Shown here piece by piece: positions 4,792-39,879 of a stretch of DNA of 64,000 bases. The notes under the pieces are model-generated. The model had not been told where the DNA came from, made no database searches, and saw only the letters and a list, made by a program, of their open reading frames with translations. Numbering within the stretch: the first letter of the stretch is position 1; the number at the start of each line of letters is the position of its first letter. Position numbers and translations under genes: made by a program. The stretch is from Bacteroidales bacterium (GTDB taxonomy: Bacteria; Bacteroidota; Bacteroidia; Bacteroidales; Prolixibacteraceae): the NCBI GenBank assembly GCA_012729335.1, contig JAAYDJ010000036.1, positions 1-64,000 on the forward strand, in the 5' to 3' direction.

Positions 4792-7056
4792 TCAGAGGTA
4801 TTTCCCACTTGAATGGTAGAAGTTGCGGAAGGACTTGACCACATTCACCGTATGGAGCAACAGGTTCCTGGTTTCGGTGAGTGACTTGAAGAAAAGCAGG
4901 GAATTGCGGGTATTCACCTCCAGATCCTTGATCCGCTTCACCTGATCCTTTTCAATGCTGTAGAGTTTTTCGGCGATATTTACCCGTCGGGTCACCAGCA
5001 GATCGATGTTGTCGAATTTGTGTTCCCTGACGATCTCCAGGGCAAAGGTAAAAAAGTCATCGACCGCGCGGATCAGCATTCTGACCTGGGCATTCTGCGA
5101 TTCCGTGAAAGGTTTGTGCTGGTTCTCCATATGCTGCTTCAGGGGATCCACCATGAAGTGGATGGCATGGGCCATTTCCCGCTGGGCATCCACCAGCTGT
5201 ATGTAATGGTAGCCGGCATCGACGTCCACCATTTTCATTTTGGACATCACCGTGATGCTTTTATTCTTCTGTTTTTTGGTTTTGGCATTCAACAGGGTGT
5301 TGCGTTCCATGGCTTCGCGCATGGTGGTGATGTCCTCCCTGATGAAACTGTCGAGGGCATCTGAAAAAATCCGGTTGGTATTGATGATGGTTTTGGCGGC
5401 CTGGTTTTCAGCTTTCTCAATGCGCTTGACCAGTTCATCTTTTTCGCTGATCATTTCCTCCTCCTCGGCATTATTTACAAGGCGCTTTCGGAAAAGAATA
5501 TGGGTACGCACCACCAGGGTAGCGGAAAGCACCATCAGGGCGGCTATGGCAATCCATCCTCCGGCACTGATCAGCCAGGCCACCAGTCCGCTGATGGTAA
5601 AGGCAATGACTGCGGTCAGGAACCACCCTCCCACGACGGTAAAGACGCCTGAGATGCGATATACTGCGCTTTCGCGCCCCCAGGCCCGGTCGGCCAGGGA
5701 ACTTCCCATGGCCACCATAAAGGTCACATAGGTCGTGGAAAGAGGGAGCTTCAGGGAGGTCCCGAAGGCGATCAGGCTGCTGGCCACCACCAGGTTCACC
5801 GAAGCCCTGAGTTTATCGAAGGCCGGCGCTTCAGGGTCATCAGAGGTTTCCACAGGAGCAAACCGTTTCATCAGAAATTGATTTGCCTTATAGGGCATGA
5901 GCCGTTTCAACCGTTTATTAAGGCGCACCGAACTGCGCACAATGGCCCGTGCAATGCCCGAAGAGCCGAACCGTTCGGCGCCTTCCAACTGCCGTCCCAG
6001 ATTCACCTCCGTTTCGGTGACCTTCTTTGCTTTCTTGCTGGTTATAAGGGTAATGACCATGACTACCCCGGAAATCAACAGGAAGAGGAATGGCGTTTCC
6101 ACGTTCCCCAGGAGCATGTCCATGTTAAATGCCGACGGATCGGCAGCCCCGGCGGTCACCCAGGCTTTGAAAGAGGCATATCCGGCAATGGGAACCCCGA
6201 TAAAGTTGACTAGGTCATTGCCGGCGAAAGCCATGGCCAGGGCAAAGGTCCCGGCCAGTACCACCACCTTGAGGATGTCCATCCTGAAAAGCCACCACAG
6301 CACCTGAATGAGTACCGTCCAACCCAAAAGGCTGATCGTCAGAAGCATTCCGGTATGGGCGCTGATCCACTCCGACAGGGGCGTGGCATGGTGCCCCACG
6401 GGCAGGGAGGCAAAGGAACTGCCGTCAATTCCCTTGATCAGGATAAAATAACTGATCATGGTGATGGCCACACCGCCGAAAAGGCTTCCAAAGTACAGGA
6501 GCTTCCGCTCAAAACGGAAAGTAAAGAGAAGCCTGGCCAAATATTGGACCAGGGTGCCGAAGGAAAAAGCGATGAGAATGGAAACCAGGATACCCCCAAT
6601 GATGGCCAGGGCTTTCCCCGTATTGACATACTGGGCCAGGTCGCCGAATGTTCCACCCAGGGCACTGATTTTCACCAGGGAAACGGCAAAGGCCGACCCC
6701 AGCAATTCGAAAACCAGCGACACCGTGGTCGAGGTGGGCAACCCCAGTGAATTAAAGGCATCAAGAAGGATGACATCCGTGATCATCACCGCCAGGAACA
6801 GGATCATGATCTCCGAAAAGGAAAACATGTCGGGGAAAAACACTCCCTTGCGGGCCACTTCCATCATGCCCGTGGAAAAAGTGGCGCCAATGAGGACACC
6901 GAGGGCCGCCATGGTGAAGATCACCCACCTGGGGGCTGCCTTGGATCCTATGGCCGAGTTGAGAAAATTGACGGCGTCGTTGGTGACGCCCACGATGAGG
7001 TCGGAAATCGCCAGGGCAAAGAGAATCACGACGATGACCAGATAGAAATTCTCCAT
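4792..7056 (-). CDS. PiT-family inorganic phosphate transporter with helical C-terminal domain
   Basis: Inner-membrane low-affinity phosphate permease, 754 residues from the preferred ATG at 7056 (MENFYLVIVV); an upstream in-frame ATG at 7167 would add an unlikely 37-residue leader. The two PiT signature repeats are visible as GVTNDAVNFLNSAIGS near the N-terminus and GNDLVNFIGVPIAGYAS in the middle, separated by many hydrophobic segments. After the last membrane segments (about residue 520) come roughly 230 residues of mostly charged helix, resembling the PhoU-like cytoplasmic domain seen in long Bacteroidota PiT proteins. Such fusions may couple transport to phosphate signalling; that is inference here. 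It is convergent with the S9 peptidase and divergent from amtB across a 450-bp gap. Confidence 0.92.
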   Translation of the reverse strand: MENFYLVIVVILFALAISDLIVGVTNDAVNFLNSAIGSKAAPRWVIFTMAALGVLIGATFSTGMMEVARKGVFFPDMFSFSEIMILFLAVMITDVILLDAFNSLGLPTSTTVSLVFELLGSAFAVSLVKISALGGTFGDLAQYVNTGKALAIIGGILVSILIAFSFGTLVQYLARLLFTFRFERKLLYFGSLFGGVAITMISYFILIKGIDGSSFASLPVGHHATPLSEWISAHTGMLLTISLLGWTVLIQVLWWLFRMDILKVVVLAGTFALAMAFAGNDLVNFIGVPIAGYASFKAWVTAGAADPSAFNMDMLLGNVETPFLFLLISGVVMVITLITSKKAKKVTETEVNLGRQLEGAERFGSSGIARAIVRSSVRLNKRLKRLMPYKANQFLMKRFAPVETSDDPEAPAFDKLRASVNLVVASSLIAFGTSLKLPLSTTYVTFMVAMGSSLADRAWGRESAVYRISGVFTVVGGWFLTAVIAFTISGLVAWLISAGGWIAIAALMVLSATLVVRTHILFRKRLVNNAEEEEMISEKDELVKRIEKAENQAAKTIINTNRIFSDALDSFIREDITTMREAMERNTLLNAKTKKQKNKSITVMSKMKMVDVDAGYHYIQLVDAQREMAHAIHFMVDPLKQHMENQHKPFTESQNAQVRMLIRAVDDFFTFALEIVREHKFDNIDLLVTRRVNIAEKLYSIEKDQVKRIKDLEVNTRNSLLFFKSLTETRNLLLHTVNVVKSFRNFYHSSGKYL

Positions 7057-7506
7057 GGATGGTTCTGTTTTCAGGAGCAAAACTACGTAACAAAAACGTC
7101 CCTTCAACAACGAAAACCGGGTTGCATCAAAAAATTGCGGAACGAAAACCGGTCTCTTAACCTGCATAGTTTAAAATGGGCCGCTGATGAAATCACCGCG
7201 ACCAGATTATGCCCGGAGAAAGGTGCAGGATAATTCACATAATTAAATATTTATTTAGTACCCCCCCTTAATTAGGGGGGAGTATGCGTATATTTATATT
7301 ATTTTCTTTGTTACCCCTATGTTAATTTATGGGTATATATGGCTATTATATATCTTTTTGTTACCCATACCCCTATTTTAAGTATACATTTGATTGCAGA
7401 ACGATGTGTTTTCCTACAACCATTGCTGAACCCGCGGGAAAATGGAGGGAAGGAAAGCCGTGGCAAGTGGAGGAGGGAGAAAACCAATTAACCAATACTG
7501 TTTGAT
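7057..7506. promoter_or_regulatory. Divergent control region between the phosphate and ammonium transporter genes
   Basis: A 450-bp gap holding no convincing gene. The central part (about 7220-7400) is strongly AT-rich. It contains a hairpin-forming inverted repeat CCCCCCT-TAATT-AGGGGGG at 7262-7280 and two direct repeats of TTTGTTACCC (starting 7307 and 7367, 60 bp apart), each followed within a few bases by CCTAT. Spacing and position suggest operators for amtB, but the binding protein is unknown. No clear sigma-54 box was found. Confidence 0.5.
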
Positions 7507-8829
7507 ATGAAAAAGAAGTTATTTATGTTGCCCTTGCTGTTGCTGGCAGGGATGAAGGAAGCCCTGGCGTTGGGGCCGGTGAGTTGCGATACGGGAGTTA
7601 CGGCCTGGATGCTGACCTCCACGGCGCTGGTATTGCTGATGATCCCCGGACTGGCCATGTTTTACGGAGGATTGGTGAGGAGCAAGAATGTGCTGGGGAC
7701 GGTCATGCACAGTTTTGCGGCCATGGGCATCATCAGTGTATTATGGGTGGCGGTGGGCTATGCCATGTGTTTTGGCCCGAATGTGGCCGGAGGCTGGTTT
7801 GGCTGGGACTCCGCCTATTTTTTTCTGAAAGGGATCGACACCAGGGTGATGGAAGCCGGGATTCCCGAATATGTATTCTCGATGTTTCAGGGGAAGTTCG
7901 CCATCATCACCCCGGCCCTGATCGCGGGAGCCTTTGCGGAGCGGGTCTCCTTCAAGGCTTACTGCCTGTTTATTGCCCTGTGGAGTCTGTTTGTTTACAA
8001 TCCCTTGTGTCATTGGGTATGGGCTTCTGACGGATTTCTGTTCAACCTGGGAGCCCGTGGGGCCATAGATTTTGCCGGAGGAACGGTGGTGCACATCTCT
8101 GCGGGGGTAAGCGGACTGGTAGTGGCCTTGTTTCTGGGGTCGCGCCGGGGTTATCCTTACCAGGTCATACGCCCGAACAATCTGGTGATTACCATGTTGG
8201 GAGCCGGGTTGCTCTGGGTGGGTTGGTTTGGATTCAATGCCGGAAGCAGCATCTCAAGCGGGCTGAGTACGGCCCAGGCTTTGGTGGCCACCCAGGTGGC
8301 GGCAGCCGCCGGAGCCATGACCTGGCTGATCATCGAAAGCTATCACCAGGGAAAGGCCACCGCCCTGGGGTTTGCCAGCGGTATCCTGGCCGGACTGGTG
8401 GCGGTGACCCCGGCGGCAGGGGTCGTCCAGCCCTACGGCGCCATGGCCCTGGGCATCCTCGCCTCCTGTGTCTGTTACCTGGCCATTCAGCTGAAAAACA
8501 AAATGGGGTATGACGACAGCCTGGACGCATTTGGCATCCATGGCGTGGGAGGCATCGCCGGCGCCCTCCTGCTTACCTTTTTTATCCGTCCCTCCTGGAT
8601 GAAGGAAGCCTCAGAAGCAGCAGGCGGAATGTGGACCACCCTTCAGCAGCTCGGCGTCCAGGCCCTGGCCGTCGGCATCGCCATCGCCTATTCCGCCGCC
8701 ATGACCCTGCTGCTCGTTTTCCTGCTCAACAAGGTCATCCCCCTGCGCTCCTCCGGAGAAGATGAGATGGCTGGCCTTGACCGTACCTACCATGGCGAAA
8801 GAGGCTACGGCATGCTCAACCCCAGCTGA
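7507..8829 (+). CDS. amtB: Ammonium transporter (Amt/MEP/Rh family)
   Basis: Inner-membrane ammonium channel, 440 residues. A cleavable signal-like N-terminus (about 1-22) precedes eleven hydrophobic segments, as in Amt proteins. Family landmarks are present: GLAMFYGGLVR near residue 50, the first pore histidine in NPLCHWVW, and the second in DAFGIHGVGG. Length matches the family. A PII gene follows 158 bp downstream, the classical amtB-glnK arrangement in which PII binds the cytoplasmic face and blocks the pore when nitrogen is plentiful. Regulation probably acts through the AT-rich upstream region with its paired TTTGTTACCC repeats. The gap to glnK is not empty (see the small ORF and the nested inverted repeats). 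Confidence 0.96.
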   Translation: MKKKLFMLPLLLLAGMKEALALGPVSCDTGVTAWMLTSTALVLLMIPGLAMFYGGLVRSKNVLGTVMHSFAAMGIISVLWVAVGYAMCFGPNVAGGWFGWDSAYFFLKGIDTRVMEAGIPEYVFSMFQGKFAIITPALIAGAFAERVSFKAYCLFIALWSLFVYNPLCHWVWASDGFLFNLGARGAIDFAGGTVVHISAGVSGLVVALFLGSRRGYPYQVIRPNNLVITMLGAGLLWVGWFGFNAGSSISSGLSTAQALVATQVAAAAGAMTWLIIESYHQGKATALGFASGILAGLVAVTPAAGVVQPYGAMALGILASCVCYLAIQLKNKMGYDDSLDAFGIHGVGGIAGALLLTFFIRPSWMKEASEAAGGMWTTLQQLGVQALAVGIAIAYSAAMTLLLVFLLNKVIPLRSSGEDEMAGLDRTYHGERGYGMLNPS

Positions 8830-19840: not shown

Positions 19841-20920
19841 ATGGACTACACCTCACTGATTCCCGTGGCAGATTCAATTCCCGCACCCGCATGGCTCTTT
19901 GTCATTTTGGAACAATTGATCTTTCTGCTGCACATCGTCCTGATCAATGCCGTACTGGGAGGGGCCCTGATCATGCTGTTCGGCAGGAACATGGAAAAGG
20001 ATTCCGGGACGGCCTACAACCGGTACATGCCGGTGGCGGCCCAACTGCCTGTCATGGTTGCGCTCGCCATCAACCTGGGAGTTCCCCCCCTGCTGTTCAT
20101 GCAGGTGGTCTTCGGTCATCTCTTCTACACCAGTTCAGTACTGATGGCGGTATACTGGATCATGATCATTCCCCTTCTTATCCTGGCCTACTATGCCATC
20201 TACATCCACAAACTGAAATTTCTGCGTTCCCCTCTTCTTTCAAAGTTGTCGCTGGGAACCGCCATTCTCTTCATCCTTTACATCGGGTATATACAGGTGG
20301 CCAACAACGCCCTCATGGAACAGCCAGAAAGCTGGACGGCCTACTTCGCCCAACGGGGAGGCACCTTCCTGAACAGCAGCCATCAGACCTTTTTACCGCG
20401 TTACCTCCATTTCATCGTCTCCTCGGTGGCCATTGGGGGATTGCTCTTTGCCCTGGTCTTTCATTTCAGGAAAGAGACCGTGGAAAAGAGAGAGGAATCC
20501 ATCAGGCGCGGGCTCAGGATTTTTGCCCTGGCCACCTCCGTACAGGTGGTGGTGGGCTGCTGGTACCTCCTCTCCCTTCCCCGCGAATTCATTCTTCAGT
20601 TCATGGGGAGGAACGCCCTGGCCACCTTCTTCCTGCTGGCCGGTGCCGTGTGCGGCACCGGCGCCATGGTGACCGCATGGTCAGGCCAGTTCAAGACCAC
20701 GATCCTGCTTACCCTGGCCACCCTCGCAGCCATGATCATCACCCGCTACCAGCTCAGAATCATGTACTTAAATGACCACTTCTCGGTCAGCGAACTCACA
20801 CTCAACCCGCAATATGGTGTGATGGCGCTTTTTCTGATCATCCTGGTAGCCGGATTGGTGGTGATCGGTTATATGCTGAAAGTTGGGTTTAACAAAACAG
20901 AAAGGAGCGCAGCACAATGA
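19841..20920 (+). CDS. Cytochrome bd-like integral membrane subunit (partner of the octahaem fusion)
   Basis: Polytopic inner-membrane protein, 359 residues with about nine hydrophobic segments and no CxxCH site. The first helix (LFVILEQLIFLLHIVLINAV) places a His inside the membrane in the manner of CydA helix 1. A later segment reads VVFGHLFYTSSVLMAVYW, similar in layout to the CydA quinol/haem region. The next gene begins 4 bp before this one ends (overlapping ATGA) and has the same kind of N-terminal fold, so the two probably form a heterodimer comparable to CydA-CydA' or CydA-CydB pairs. It would hold haem b and/or the quinol site. The family assignment rests on hydrophobic pattern and few residues, so it is less certain than for the neighbour. 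Confidence 0.7.
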   Translation: MDYTSLIPVADSIPAPAWLFVILEQLIFLLHIVLINAVLGGALIMLFGRNMEKDSGTAYNRYMPVAAQLPVMVALAINLGVPPLLFMQVVFGHLFYTSSVLMAVYWIMIIPLLILAYYAIYIHKLKFLRSPLLSKLSLGTAILFILYIGYIQVANNALMEQPESWTAYFAQRGGTFLNSSHQTFLPRYLHFIVSSVAIGGLLFALVFHFRKETVEKREESIRRGLRIFALATSVQVVVGCWYLLSLPREFILQFMGRNALATFFLLAGAVCGTGAMVTAWSGQFKTTILLTLATLAAMIITRYQLRIMYLNDHFSVSELTLNPQYGVMALFLIILVAGLVVIGYMLKVGFNKTERSAAQ

Positions 20921-23568
20921 ATTATCCGATATGGGAATTGGCGCAATTGAACAGCGGAACGCTGGTCGCCTTCATCGCTACCATTCACGCCTATGTGGCC
21001 CATCTGGCCGTGGGTGGAGGACTCTTCCTCTGGCTCACCGACCTGAAAGCAGTCCGTGACAACGACCCCGTCATCAAAGCTTACGTAAAACGACACACCT
21101 GGTTCTTCCTGTTGCTGACCATGGTTTTCGGCGGCGTTTCCGGAGTGGGCATCTGGTTCATCATCGCCCTGGCCAACCCGGCAGCCACCTCTTCACTCAT
21201 CCACCATTTCGTCTTCGGATGGGCCATCGAATGGGTCTTCTTCATCGGAGAAATCGTCGCCTTGCTCATCTATCACTACCGCCACGATCAGATGCGTGAA
21301 AAAGACCGCCTGCGCGTGGCTTTTCTCTATTTCCTCTTTGCGTGGCTGAGCATGGTCGTCATTAACGGCATCCTGGCCTTTATGCTGACTCCCGGAAAAT
21401 GGCTCGAAACCGGGCAATTCTGGGATGGGTTCCTCAATCCCAGCTATTTCTCATCGCTCTTCTTCAGAAGCGCAGCAGCGGTTATGATCGCCGGCCTTTT
21501 CGGGTATGTCACCGTGGTCTTCTCCAAAGAGGAGGAACTCCGTGGAAAAATGGTGAAATATTGCACCAAATGGCTGCTCTACCCGGTCCCGTTTATCATG
21601 GCGGGTGCCTTCTGGTATATCCATTCGGTGCCGGAAAGCGTCCTTCAGACCACTTTCCACCTCAATGCCCAGACACAGTTCGTGGTCACCGCCTTCGTGG
21701 TCACGTCGGTGCTCATCTTCGTGGCCGGTCTTTTCTACTCCCTGCGCACCACACCCCTCCTCCAGAAAATCATGGTCTTCGTGTTTCTGCTCATCGGACT
21801 GGGATGGTACAGCAGCTTTGAATACCTCCGGGAATATGCCCGGAAACCTTACATCATCCACGGCCATATGTATTCCACCTCTATCCTTGCCGCCGATGTG
21901 GAAATGCTGAACAGGGAAGGGGTGCTGAAACACGCCAGATGGAGTTCCGTGCACCAGGTGACCGAAGAAAACCGGCTGGCGGCAGGAAGGGAACTCTTTA
22001 ACCTGCAATGCCTGGCCTGCCACACCATCGGCGGAGTCAAAAACGACATCATCGAAAAAACCAGGGATCTGACTTATATGGGCATGATCTCCCAGCTTTA
22101 CGGCCAGGGGAAAGTCCTCGATTACATGCCACGCTTCACCGGCACCCGGCAGGAAATGGAAGCCCTGGCCGCCTATATCATTTCCGGATTACAGGGGAAG
22201 GAACTGGTGACCACCCTGGCTCAGTTCGACCCCACCCCGGTCGACAATGAGATCCCCCCCTTCGACAGCGCCACCGACGACTATGTTCTGCTGGCCTGGA
22301 ACGATCTGGGAATGCACTGTATTTCCGACTGTGATCCCTGGTTCATCCTGCTTCCGCCGGCCAACACCCTCGAGGCCCAGCTGATCAAACGGGGAGCTCT
22401 TCCCGAGGTGATCACCGATGGCATCGTGCTTAAATTCCGGGTAGAAAAGGGGTTTGAAAATCCCTCGGCACACGTGGAATTCTGGGATTTCGCGGAGTCT
22501 TACTTCGGGGTCAGACTTGACAAAAACAGAGGCCTGGGAGGGAAAGGTCTTGAAGGGGAATTCGACTGGCACGAAGAACGCAACAGCTTTGTGGCCGAGA
22601 TGATTCCGGTGGTGCCCTATCATGATGACGGCTCCTTCCAGCCCTATCCCCTGTTCATCATCGATGCCGTGGAGAAGGAAACCGGCAGGCTGTTGGCTTC
22701 CACGAAAGCCGTGGCGCCGGTTTCGACCGAGATGGGATGCCGCAACTGTCACGGCGGAGGATGGCGTGTCAACGGGGTGTCGGGGGTTGCTGATGAGACA
22801 GCCGTCAATATCCTGAAAGTGCATGACCGCATCAACGGCACCGCTCTGTATGGGTCTGCCAGCCAGGGATCACCTGTTCTGTGCCAGAGCTGCCACGCCG
22901 ACCCGGCCATCGGGGCACCCGGCACAGAGGGGCATAATAATTTCTCCACGGCACTGCATGGATGGCATGCCAACTACATGCATGTGGAGGGGGGGCGTGC
23001 CTGCGTGATGTGCCATCCCGCGGCCGCCGAAGGGAACACCCGCTGCAACAGGGGAATCCACCCGCAAATGGGACTGACCTGCACAAACTGCCACGGGACC
23101 ATGGAGGAGCACGCCACGGGACTCCTCAATGCCCAAATGGAAAACCCCAGCAGCAGGCGACTGGTTAAAAACCTGACCACCACGGTGTCTGAGGTAAAGC
23201 CCCGGACGCCTTGGATCCAGGAGCCCCAGTGCCTGGCCTGTCACCGCCAGTTCAAACAGCCCGCACGCAGCTCCTCGGGGGTGAACAGCTGGAACGAGGC
23301 CTTCTCACAGCTCTACCGTATCCGTACCGACAACGCTGGCCTGCGCTGTTCCGCATGTCACAACTCCCCGCATTCGGAGTACCCGGCGTACAATGCTTTC
23401 GGCAAACACCGCGACAACACCCAGCCCATGCAGTATGCCCGTTCGCCCCTGCCCATCGGTGCGGAGTTCAGCTGCACCGTCTGCCACAAAAAGGAGATGA
23501 ACCATTCGGTGCACCACCCCAATATGGTCAGACCTTTCAGAAACAAGCAGGCAGTCAGGGAACAATAA
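20917..23568 (+). CDS. Cytochrome bd-like membrane domain fused to an octahaem cytochrome c
   Basis: A predicted quinol-oxidising membrane protein with an extracytoplasmic haem chain, 883 residues. Residues 1-320 form about eight membrane helices resembling CydA: His24/His29 in helix 1, GVSGVGIWFI near 73-82, and E105/E112 in GWAIEWVFFIGEIV, matching the region around E99/E107 of E. coli CydA. A monohaem c domain follows (CLACH at 365). Next is a domain opening with AWNDLGMHC at about 455, a motif I know from multihaem proteins of other phyla but with no assigned function. Seven further haem sites follow: 608 (CRNCH), 656 (CQSCH), 696 (CVMCH), 722 (CTNCH), 772 (CLACH), 811 (CSACH) and 853 (CTVCH). 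bd-superfamily members with C-terminal haem c are known (the OR-C families); eight haems plus the NDLGMHC domain is far beyond the usual one or two. Electrons likely flow from menaquinol outwards, or to O2. Confidence 0.85.
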   Translation: MNYPIWELAQLNSGTLVAFIATIHAYVAHLAVGGGLFLWLTDLKAVRDNDPVIKAYVKRHTWFFLLLTMVFGGVSGVGIWFIIALANPAATSSLIHHFVFGWAIEWVFFIGEIVALLIYHYRHDQMREKDRLRVAFLYFLFAWLSMVVINGILAFMLTPGKWLETGQFWDGFLNPSYFSSLFFRSAAAVMIAGLFGYVTVVFSKEEELRGKMVKYCTKWLLYPVPFIMAGAFWYIHSVPESVLQTTFHLNAQTQFVVTAFVVTSVLIFVAGLFYSLRTTPLLQKIMVFVFLLIGLGWYSSFEYLREYARKPYIIHGHMYSTSILAADVEMLNREGVLKHARWSSVHQVTEENRLAAGRELFNLQCLACHTIGGVKNDIIEKTRDLTYMGMISQLYGQGKVLDYMPRFTGTRQEMEALAAYIISGLQGKELVTTLAQFDPTPVDNEIPPFDSATDDYVLLAWNDLGMHCISDCDPWFILLPPANTLEAQLIKRGALPEVITDGIVLKFRVEKGFENPSAHVEFWDFAESYFGVRLDKNRGLGGKGLEGEFDWHEERNSFVAEMIPVVPYHDDGSFQPYPLFIIDAVEKETGRLLASTKAVAPVSTEMGCRNCHGGGWRVNGVSGVADETAVNILKVHDRINGTALYGSASQGSPVLCQSCHADPAIGAPGTEGHNNFSTALHGWHANYMHVEGGRACVMCHPAAAEGNTRCNRGIHPQMGLTCTNCHGTMEEHATGLLNAQMENPSSRRLVKNLTTTVSEVKPRTPWIQEPQCLACHRQFKQPARSSSGVNSWNEAFSQLYRIRTDNAGLRCSACHNSPHSEYPAYNAFGKHRDNTQPMQYARSPLPIGAEFSCTVCHKKEMNHSVHHPNMVRPFRNKQAVREQ

Positions 23569-37472: not shown

Positions 37473-37653
37473 GGACGTGAACTTATCAATTAAATCACTA
37501 AAATAAACTATTTAATTTAACTATTCAATCAACATGGAAAAATTTTTGCGGAGCAAACAGAGTCAAAAAAACTATAAATTATTAAATGGCCATTTTATCT
37601 TTTTATAAATTTTCATAGATTTGTCTCTTGCTTAAACCAGAATTTTGATACTC
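37473..37653. promoter_or_regulatory. Divergent promoter region, tetR operon / norB
   Basis: A 181-bp AT-rich gap. On the plus strand TAGATTTG (37616-37623) is a TAnnTTTG box 30 bp before norB, inside the composite AAATTTTCATAnnTTTG that also precedes the histidine kinase gene. Closer to tetR are two direct AACTATT heptamers (within 37501-37533), a possible operator. No Crp/Fnr- or NsrR-type NO-responsive site was recognised. Confidence 0.5.
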
Positions 37654-39879
37654 ATGGAAAAAGAGACATTGCTAGACCGGTTTATGAGCCGGAAGGGGCT
37701 TTACACCGGTTTCTGGATCATTGCCCTGCTGATGGTGACCGTGCTGATATATTACACGGCCAACCTGCAGAAAGAGGTACCTCCCATTCCGCAGACGGTC
37801 AAATCGGCCTCGGGGGAAGTGCTGTACACCTATGACGACGTGGTGGAAGGGAAGGGTTACTTCCAGCAGTTTGATTTGATGGACTGGGGCACGATGCTGG
37901 GGATGGGAGCCTATATGGGGCCTGATTTCACCACCGATTTCCTGCATTACCGTGCCGAATATCTTTATGATTTTTACGGGCAGGAGCTCTATGGGAAGGC
38001 AGCCGGTGCGCTGACCGCCGTGGAGCGGGGTGCGGTGAAGGAGCGGGTCAAACAGGATGTCAGGGAGCAGACGCGTCTTCTGGAGGCAGGAACTGTGCTG
38101 ACTGATGCATCTGCCTCGGCATTCCGGAAAAACAAGGCTTACCTGACCGACCTTTTGGTCAACGGTGATCCGGAAAGGGCTTTCACCGGCGGAATCATTC
38201 TAAAGGAAGAGGCCGAAAAAATCGCTGCCTTTGTGGACTGGGGACAATTGGCCGCCTCTTCGGTCAGGCCGGGGACCGACCGGACCTGGACCAACAACTG
38301 GCCGCCGGAACCCCTGCTGGACCAGGACGTGACCTTTGTAGCCCACAAGGTCTCCCTCTGGGAATTGCTTGTATTGTGGACGATGACCATCGTGGTGATC
38401 TATCTGGCATACGAGTACCTCTTCAAAAAGGATCCCCATGAAAAGCTGGAACCGGCCATCAAAGTGAACAGTCTGTTCGGATCGCAGCGTAAATTGCTCA
38501 AATACATCCCCATTGTGGCGGCGCTTTTTGTAGTGCAGCTGATTATCGGGGGCTATATCGCTCACCTCTACACCGAACCAACGAAGGATTTTCTCATTTC
38601 GCAGGAATTGTTGCCCTTCAACGTACTTCGTTCAGCCCATACCCAGATTGCCATCCTTTGGGTAGCTGTGGGATGGTTGGTGGGCGGGCTTCTGATCGCT
38701 CCGTGGATTGCCAACCGTGACCACAAATACCCCTGGCTCGTCGATGTATTATGGATCGCCCTGCTGGTGGTGGCTGTGGGCAGCCTGATAGGGTTATACA
38801 TGGGCGCCACCGGCCAGATGCGTGAAACCTGGTTCTGGCTCGGCAATGAAGGGCGTGAACTGCTCAACCTCGGGCGTGTATGGGATATCGGACTGGTCAT
38901 CGGGCTGGTGTTCTGGTTCCTGCTGATCATCTCGCTGATCAGGAAAGCCTCCACCAACAACCCGATCGTGAGCACCATCATCTGGTCGGCATTCGCCATC
39001 GCCACTTTGTACATTGCCGGGATGATGCCGATCCACCAGATCTTCCCTAACTATACGGTGGATGACTATTACCGCTGGTGGGTCATTCACCTCTGGGTGG
39101 AACTGACTTTCGAACTATTTGCTGCAGGGGTGATCGCCTTCTTCACGGTCTCTCTGGGACTGATTTCCCATAAGGTGGCCGTAAGAACCATGCTCTTCGA
39201 GCTGCTGCTGATCATGATGAGCGGCACCCTGGGAGTGGGGCACCACTACTGGTGGCAAGGCCTCGACGAGTATTGGATTGCCGTGGGAGGAATTTTCTCG
39301 GCCCTGGAACCCCTGCCCCTGGCCCTCATGATCGTGGAAGCCATGAAAAACGCCCGCGAACAGCGGCTCGGAGGCCATAAAAACGCATTCTCGGTCTCCT
39401 TCATGTGGATCGCAGGTTCGGCCATCCTCAACTGGATCGGGGCCGGTTTCTTTGGCATGCTCATCAACCTGCCCACCATCAACTACTATTCACACGGTAC
39501 TTATCTGATCATGCCTCACGGCCATGTGGCCCTGCTGGGAGCATTTGGTTACATTTCCATTGCCTTCCTTTATATGGCGTCCCGTACCAATTCCCTGGCC
39601 AAAGGACTCGCCTGGGACGACAAACTGAGTAAATACGGCTTCTGGATCCTGACCATCGGCACCCTGCTGTTTACCATCCCCACTTATATCATCGGTATGG
39701 AACAGACCCGTATCGCCCACGACATGGGATACTTTTACTCCCGTGTAAGAGAAGCTGTGGAACCCATGAAAACCTGGATGTGGCTCAGGCTCATCCCCGA
39801 CAGCATGATGATCCTGGGCGGAGTGATCATTCTCTACGACCTGGTCATGAAAACCTACCTGGCCAAAAAGAGCACGTAA
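37654..39879 (+). CDS. norB: Quinol-dependent nitric oxide reductase (qNOR-type NorB)
   Basis: Membrane haem-copper superfamily enzyme reducing two NO to N2O with quinol electrons, 741 residues from ATG 37654 (a TTG 9 bp upstream is less likely). The fused N-terminal part, one helix plus a periplasmic domain to about residue 235, marks the quinol type that needs no NorC. Active-site ligands are present: His479 in VIHLWVE, His530/His531 in GVGHHYWW, with Glu483 and Glu487 in HLWVELTFE; the usual sequence there is HLWVEGVWE, so three residues between the two glutamates differ while both acids are kept. The haem region PHGHVALLGAFGY is also standard. The FeB histidines rule out the Asn-substituted NO dismutase form. 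There is no neighbouring NO regulator or nitrite reductase, so detoxification or partial denitrification is likely. Confidence 0.94.
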   Translation: MEKETLLDRFMSRKGLYTGFWIIALLMVTVLIYYTANLQKEVPPIPQTVKSASGEVLYTYDDVVEGKGYFQQFDLMDWGTMLGMGAYMGPDFTTDFLHYRAEYLYDFYGQELYGKAAGALTAVERGAVKERVKQDVREQTRLLEAGTVLTDASASAFRKNKAYLTDLLVNGDPERAFTGGIILKEEAEKIAAFVDWGQLAASSVRPGTDRTWTNNWPPEPLLDQDVTFVAHKVSLWELLVLWTMTIVVIYLAYEYLFKKDPHEKLEPAIKVNSLFGSQRKLLKYIPIVAALFVVQLIIGGYIAHLYTEPTKDFLISQELLPFNVLRSAHTQIAILWVAVGWLVGGLLIAPWIANRDHKYPWLVDVLWIALLVVAVGSLIGLYMGATGQMRETWFWLGNEGRELLNLGRVWDIGLVIGLVFWFLLIISLIRKASTNNPIVSTIIWSAFAIATLYIAGMMPIHQIFPNYTVDDYYRWWVIHLWVELTFELFAAGVIAFFTVSLGLISHKVAVRTMLFELLLIMMSGTLGVGHHYWWQGLDEYWIAVGGIFSALEPLPLALMIVEAMKNAREQRLGGHKNAFSVSFMWIAGSAILNWIGAGFFGMLINLPTINYYSHGTYLIMPHGHVALLGAFGYISIAFLYMASRTNSLAKGLAWDDKLSKYGFWILTIGTLLFTIPTYIIGMEQTRIAHDMGYFYSRVREAVEPMKTWMWLRLIPDSMMILGGVIILYDLVMKTYLAKKST

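Follow-up and report, generated by a model that had tools for sequence, protein, structure and literature searches.

Two overlapping genes for CydA-like membrane proteins, one with an octahaem cytochrome c tail: a candidate quinol-independent oxygen reductase of the cytochrome bd superfamily

In this work, we have analysed a pair of overlapping genes present in a 64,000-nucleotide stretch of DNA (the window) from a Bacteroidales bacterium of the Prolixibacteraceae (GenBank assembly GCA_012729335.1, contig JAAYDJ010000036.1, positions 1 to 64,000). The first gene codes for subunit A (19841..20920, forward strand, 359 aa), a CydA-like paralogue of the product of the second, subunit B (20917..23568, forward strand, 883 aa), in which a CydA-like membrane core is fused to an octahaem c tail. 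We think it somewhat probable that A-B is a two-subunit, quinol-independent, cytochrome-wired O2 reductase of the bd superfamily, similar to the OR-C family. Since the core of B has neither Q-loop nor b558 ligand, while its di-haem residues are invariant, electron input through the haem chain is the more likely direction. A first-pass annotation, made from the sequence alone, had instead proposed that electrons leave menaquinol through the membrane towards an extracytoplasmic acceptor; its observations are confirmed here and its overall interpretation is partly supported, the proposed direction of flow no longer being the best reading.

RESULTS

The ORFs (open reading frames) of A and B share 4 bases, which confirms the overlap noticed in the first-pass annotation, and its description of both products as bd-like holds for the predicted structures. 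On profile and model comparison, the core of B (residues 1-323, 20917..21885, forward strand) belongs to the cytochrome bd superfamily, CydA type. The B model (mean pLDDT 90.9) has eight long helices in the core, and the 20 top Foldseek matches were all bd oxidase chains (best 5doq_A, E 2.4e-7). With VIA, residues 7-323 matched bd subunit I at Z 29.6-31.5, about 315 residues superposing on CydA at Z about 30 and a root-mean-square deviation of about 3 Å. The annotation had named an NrfD/PsrC match of the membrane cores as one finding that would speak against it; PsrC reached 16.3 with B and alternative complex III (ACIII) chains 16.6-17.6, and both folds are ruled out for B. When the CydA orientation is assumed, the loops of the core carry one lysine or arginine on the outer side and 10 on the inner side, which together with the eight helices puts the C-terminus of B in the periplasm, as haem c requires.

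Family profiles were needed to reach this assignment, since Pfam, NCBIfam and a phmmer search of the PDB gave no bd name to the window's A or B. Relatives of B were the best 80 of 130 loci from one scan of genome contigs, in which weaker relatives and unfused named ones are under-sampled. In a Pfam scan of 54 B cores (the window copy and 53 others), 34 matched PF01654 at E<=0.01 (best 2.9e-16), and the window's own B was not among them. The B family profile found 5doq_A in the PDB at 4.3e-8, and an unfused mono-haem relative of B (locus L048) matched PF01654 at 8.8e-21.

The residues of the high-spin di-haem site are kept in B, and those of the quinol side are lost. In an alignment of the window copy with 69 hand-picked sequences from the 74 full-length B proteins (at least 820 aa), H24, E105, E112, E306, R309 and P311 were each found in 70/70 rows. 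The annotation had guessed H24, H29, E105 and E112 as haem ligands; H24, E105 and E112 proved invariant, and H29 is kept in 66 of the 70. When the B profile was aligned with 5doq_A and read by eye, H24, E105, E112 and E306/R309/P311 faced residues of the CydA site, and alignment with the canonical CydA of related genomes gave the same pairing, in agreement with the CydA-like ligand core proposed earlier. The stretch E306-x-x-R309-[KR]-P311-[YFW] is equivalent to CydA EVGRQPW. We take the CydA partners of H24, E105, E112, E306 and R309 to be ligands of the two high-spin haems, which in E. coli CydA are presumably bound by H19, E99, E107, E445 and R448. Judged by its residues, the high-spin site of B would thus be intact, and we infer that it is occupied by haem. 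In the same 5doq_A alignment, the position of the low-spin b558 histidine (helix 5) is F183 in B and that of the methionine (helix 7) is Q254, these being the residues that we assume to bind b558 in CydA; R184, beside the lost histidine position, is invariant. There is no Q-loop either: 315 residues of the model cover CydA 2-462, and the link between helices 6 and 7 is short. On alignment and model, B therefore appears to be without the canonical quinol features of the qOR family, having neither b558 ligand nor Q-loop.

The rest of B is a haem-rich tail, in which the eight CxxCH sites counted in the annotation (starting at residues 365, 608, 656, 696, 722, 772, 811 and 853) are far from chance, since 2000 shuffles of B gave 0.02 sites on average and never more than 1. 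Exactly eight are present in 72 of the 74 full-length copies and seven in the other two. In both Halodesulfovibrio copies (L114 and L120) the eighth motif is shortened by one residue between its cysteines. In the whole genome of the window the pattern occurs 233 times, against 149 for a reversed control pattern. Residues 350-424 (21964..22188, forward strand) form a mono-haem cytochrome c domain of the cytochrome c6 / CBB3 type (Pfam CBB3-type domain at 353-421), with its haem at C365-H369 and the invariant M404 as candidate axial ligand. Residues 608-860 (22738..23496, forward strand), where Pfam places multihaem models, carry the other seven sites. The candidate distal histidines of this stretch are 636, 681, 684, 715, 732, 819, 866 and 867, the last two just past residue 860; seven of the eight are found in 70/70 rows and H732 in 65/70. 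This conservation suggests that the seven haems are bis-His wire haems rather than catalytic ones. Solved structures gave weak matches to the octahaem tail, the best at 4.1e-4.

Between the mono-haem and seven-haem parts lies the domain that the annotation had left unnamed, which indeed has no Pfam or NCBIfam model (residues 454-606, 22276..22734, forward strand, starting with YVLLAWNDLGMHC). Its AWNDLGMHC stands at residues 460-468, and the letters of NDLGMHC are not strict (of 70: N 40, D 48, L 44, G 69, M 59, H 39, C 39). The domain is strand-rich in the model, with weak Ig-like structural matches (Z about 5). Stand-alone proteins that combine it with five to eight CxxCH sites are encoded in genomes of the window's phylum (L042 6814-8193, L043 8187-9689, L044 8114-9589, L045 8578-10017, L046 7902-9341, L047 7997-10591). 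Of these six, four (L044, L045, L046 and L047) have a C-terminal Por secretion tail and L042 is lipoprotein-like, so the NDLGMHC multihaem module, which has no Pfam name of its own, belongs by its sequence features to surface or extracellular cytochromes.

Subunit A is related to CydA less directly. Its model (mean pLDDT 91.7), built from an alignment that still held one wrong-frame row (L101), has nine predicted long helices. In VIA its best rows were CydA chains, Z being 24.5-27.1 for bd subunit I and no higher than 18.6 for ACIII; Foldseek gave nothing at E 0.001, the best matches (2.4e-3) being a mixture of CydB and CydA chains. No Pfam or NCBIfam model matched the window's A, PF01654 matched none of all 63 A members, and the A profile found nothing in the PDB. 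In hhalign, A paired with B at a probability of 96 and with CydA at just 3.8. The kinship of A to CydA is thus drawn from its alignment with B together with the VIA comparison. These profiles make A and B paralogues, and the pair looks, from profiles and models, like CydA plus a CydA-like subunit rather than CydA plus CydB. In an alignment of the window's A with 62 hand-picked sequences from 71 A references (counts of 62 leave out L101), H31 (62/62) and R187 are invariant. H190 falls at the b558 histidine position, in a weak alignment, and is kept in 61/62; no equivalent of the b558 methionine could be aligned.

The gene pair is conserved. Among the 80 loci, 76 matches span residue 1 to at least 868 of B, and with tblastn A was found upstream of B in all 69 loci that have more than 1200 nt upstream, and in 76/80 overall, the remaining four having less than 100 nt upstream. 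At one locus (L110, about 6630-8000) the A homologue stops about 300 nt before B, with no overlap or adjoining ends, and in the complete genome of Desulfosarcina widdelii (L118, 8001-10659) the frame of B is broken in its membrane part, by a sequencing error or as a pseudogene. By record titles, mostly of metagenome assemblies in which single assignments may err, the loci come from about 14 phylum-level groups, with many "Desulfo-" names: Bacteroidota, Ignavibacteriota, Kapabacteria, Calditrichota, the Desulfo- lineages (Thermodesulfobacteriota), Nitrospirota, KSB1, Spirochaetota, Verrucomicrobiota, Gemmatimonadota, Glassbacteria, Krumholzibacteriota, Cloacimonadota and Zixibacteria. Many of the carriers are bacteria of oxygen-poor habitats, and Desulfobulbus rhabdoformis is a carrier in culture. 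The full fusion is present in 4 of 454 distinct genomes (2/61 close relatives and 3/394 genomes of the phylum, both counts including the window's own genome). A tree of 97 B cores places all 75 fused rows on one side of a branch with SH-aLRT 88, a moderate support, three fused rows being on long branches; this topology fits a single origin of the fusion followed by wide spread.

Canonical CydA recurs beside the fusion. It was found within 8 kb of the pair in 12 of the 80 loci, when about 0.2 would be expected from one CydA per 4-Mb genome; eight of these loci group together in a single clade of the tree, so that about four lineages are involved in all. In the eight-locus clade CydA diverges from A-B, and in six of the eight an Rrf2-like gene lies between CydA and A (L121, confirmed by Pfam, L124, L126, L127, L128 and L131). 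Among 25 carrier genomes searched, L122's genome being left out, 19 encode canonical CydA, 13 a COX1-family protein and four neither, the COX1 family including nitric oxide (NO) reductases and the completeness of the metagenome-assembled genomes being mostly not known.

Rieske and cytochrome b queries from L048 (tblastn) matched in the flanks of none of the 80 fused loci, and other proteins with at least three CxxCH sites occurred in the flanks of just two, without recurrence. Directly upstream of A, seven of the 80 loci encode a membrane protein of about 150 aa that resembles the PsiE family (L059, confirmed by Pfam, and L056, L060, L064, L065, L066 and L119 by BLAST cluster). Unfused relatives show other arrangements. 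At L048 (7241-11462) and L049 (4295-8514) an A-like gene, a Rieske gene, a cytochrome b gene and a B-like gene lie in one cluster, as a bc-plus-bd-like set; similar clusters at L053 and L054, in which B has no CxxCH, adjoin apparent cytochrome oxidase genes (L048 was read by Pfam, the other three by eye). At L041 (7160-16465) two tandem unfused mono-haem B genes and one A-like gene lie near a COX1-family gene and genes for small multihaem proteins.

In the window itself, the neighbours of the pair (SusC/SusD-type genes upstream; a HAD-type hydrolase, a hybrid histidine kinase and a sigma-54 response regulator downstream) are uninformative as to function. The absence of a CydB gene noted in the annotation was borne out, no CydB-sized ORF adjoining the pair, whose direct flanks are SusD-like and HAD-like genes. 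In the same genome, adjacent genes on a different contig (contig 12) encode canonical CydA and CydB, the latter being the genome's sole CydB match. A promoter and terminator scan gave no signal above shuffled sequence. Further along, the window encodes a NorB-like protein of 744 aa (37645-39879; PF00115 at 3.6e-58, PF22085 NorB domain at 1e-44), by its domains probably a quinol-type NO reductase, and NrfA is encoded in the genome.

DISCUSSION

We propose that two CydA-like subunits would pair in the membrane, replacing CydA and CydB, and that B would hold two neighbouring high-spin haems close to the periplasmic side of the membrane. The C-terminus of B would reach into the periplasm and carry there the mono-haem cytochrome c domain with a wire of seven haems attached to it. 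Cytochromes of the periplasm or the outer side, the presumed donors, would pass electrons to the wire, and from there the electrons would run to the mono-haem domain and on to the di-haem site, where O2 would be reduced to water. In this way the hosts, whose names mark many of them as sulfate reducers, might remove O2 and leave the quinol pool untouched. We put forward tentatively a more specific version, an 'outside-in' oxygen reductase, that is, a quinol-free bd-type enzyme wired via an octahaem module related to secreted cytochromes.

The genomic context bears on this proposal in both directions. Co-occurrence with CydA at the genome level is weak evidence, and adjacency is stronger. Several observations weigh against an O2 reductase fed from outside: CydA was not found in the flanks of 68 of the 80 loci; 21 of the 25 carriers also have canonical CydA or a COX1-family protein, so that their need for A-B is unclear; and CydA is equally common in relatives without the fusion (24/30). 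An intact di-haem site is no proof of O2 turnover, and by its residues alone it could possibly serve NO or another substrate. The conserved H190 of A makes a quinol or haem site in that subunit possible, and the secretion tails on the stand-alone relatives of the B tail also fit electron export.

In such an export complex, A-B would oxidise menaquinol, perhaps in A, the tail would pass the electrons to an extracytoplasmic or extracellular acceptor, and the di-haem site would be a mere relay. The homology of the tail with stand-alone multihaem proteins and the H190 of A speak for it, as does a published proposal for cable bacteria in which electrons leave the cell for the periplasm by way of a CydA homologue together with Rieske and cytochrome b proteins (PMC12093952; compare PMC11247825). 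We nevertheless consider export unlikely, because B has neither Q-loop nor b558 ligands, because a simple relay would hardly need site residues kept in every row, and because other multihaem neighbours are so rare in the flanks.

Two further functions have to be weighed. Bd-type sites bind NO, and a di-haem site fed by the haem chain could detoxify NO or a similar ligand; the NorB-like gene of the window and the NrfA of the genome suggest that nitrogen oxides may matter to this host. However, tblastn and blastp with NrfA, with the NorB-like protein encoded in the window and with the other COX1-family protein of the genome gave no match in the flanks of the 80 loci, and the sequence carries no mark that separates NO from O2 reduction. 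We hold NO reduction to be improbable. Still more doubtful to us is a quinol:cytochrome c oxidoreductase in which a new quinone site would lie between A and B, an alternative complex III feeding the octahaem chain. The Rieske and cytochrome b genes beside some unfused relatives would suit it, and the bd-like proteins of Nitrospina have been proposed to act in this way if they bind quinone (PMC3578206). Yet these two partners are missing from the flanks of every fused locus, and the fold of B is closer to CydA (Z 31.5) than to ACIII (17.6).

What would a cytochrome-wired O2 reductase mean for its hosts? If the 'outside-in' scheme is true, electrons drawn from the periplasm or from beyond the cell would let them consume O2 at the membrane, and sulfate reducers and Bacteroidota would have in A-B a class of O2 defence or respiration that is widely shared and so far unstudied. 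It would show a bd oxidase uncoupled from quinol and driven by a multihaem wire, and would be a common O2-handling enzyme for sulfate reducers, Thermodesulfovibrio and Bacteroidales, which annotation can miss. The pair also offers a testable case for the electron source of quinol-free OR-C and OR-N members.

Among known systems, CydA (PF01654; Geobacillus 5doq, E. coli bd-I and bd-II) shares with B its fold and its high-spin site residues. In contrast to CydA, B has no Q-loop and no b558 histidine or methionine, continues after eight long helices into a periplasmic octahaem c tail, and has as its partner a CydA-like paralogue, whereas the partner in canonical bd oxidases is CydB. The OR-C family of the superfamily was reportedly defined by Murali, Gennis and Hemp in 2021, and we take its definition to be a CydA-type core without quinol site and with a fused cytochrome c. 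By this description A-B resembles OR-C, in that B has no quinol site and a fused cytochrome c. It differs by the NDLGMHC domain and by seven additional haem c sites; the octahaem fusion may be an OR-C subtype already catalogued in that work. In the accessible open-licence literature, the only literature searched, we found no description of an octahaem bd fusion and no occurrence of the string NDLGMHC.

Published work splits the superfamily into qOR, OR-C and OR-N (PMC13189123, PMC10839748). The OR-N CydAA' proteins of Nitrospira and Nitrospina are described as CydA-like subunits thought to be paired and to use cytochrome c instead of quinol (PMC10839748, PMC12342949, PMC3578206), and the Nitrospina bd-like protein, with 14 predicted helices, is discussed together with separate cytochromes and cupredoxins (PMC3578206). 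Set beside OR-N by description, A-B would share with it the paired CydA-like subunits and the input from cytochrome c. In cable bacteria, a CydA homologue without CydB is reported as part of a Rieske/cytochrome b set (PMC11247825, PMC10030654, PMC12093952), which, likened by description, resembles the unfused clusters of A, Rieske, cytochrome b and mono-haem B at L048 and L049. Unlike the cable-bacteria set, the fused A-B carries eight haem c sites, and Rieske and cytochrome b genes are absent from its flanks.

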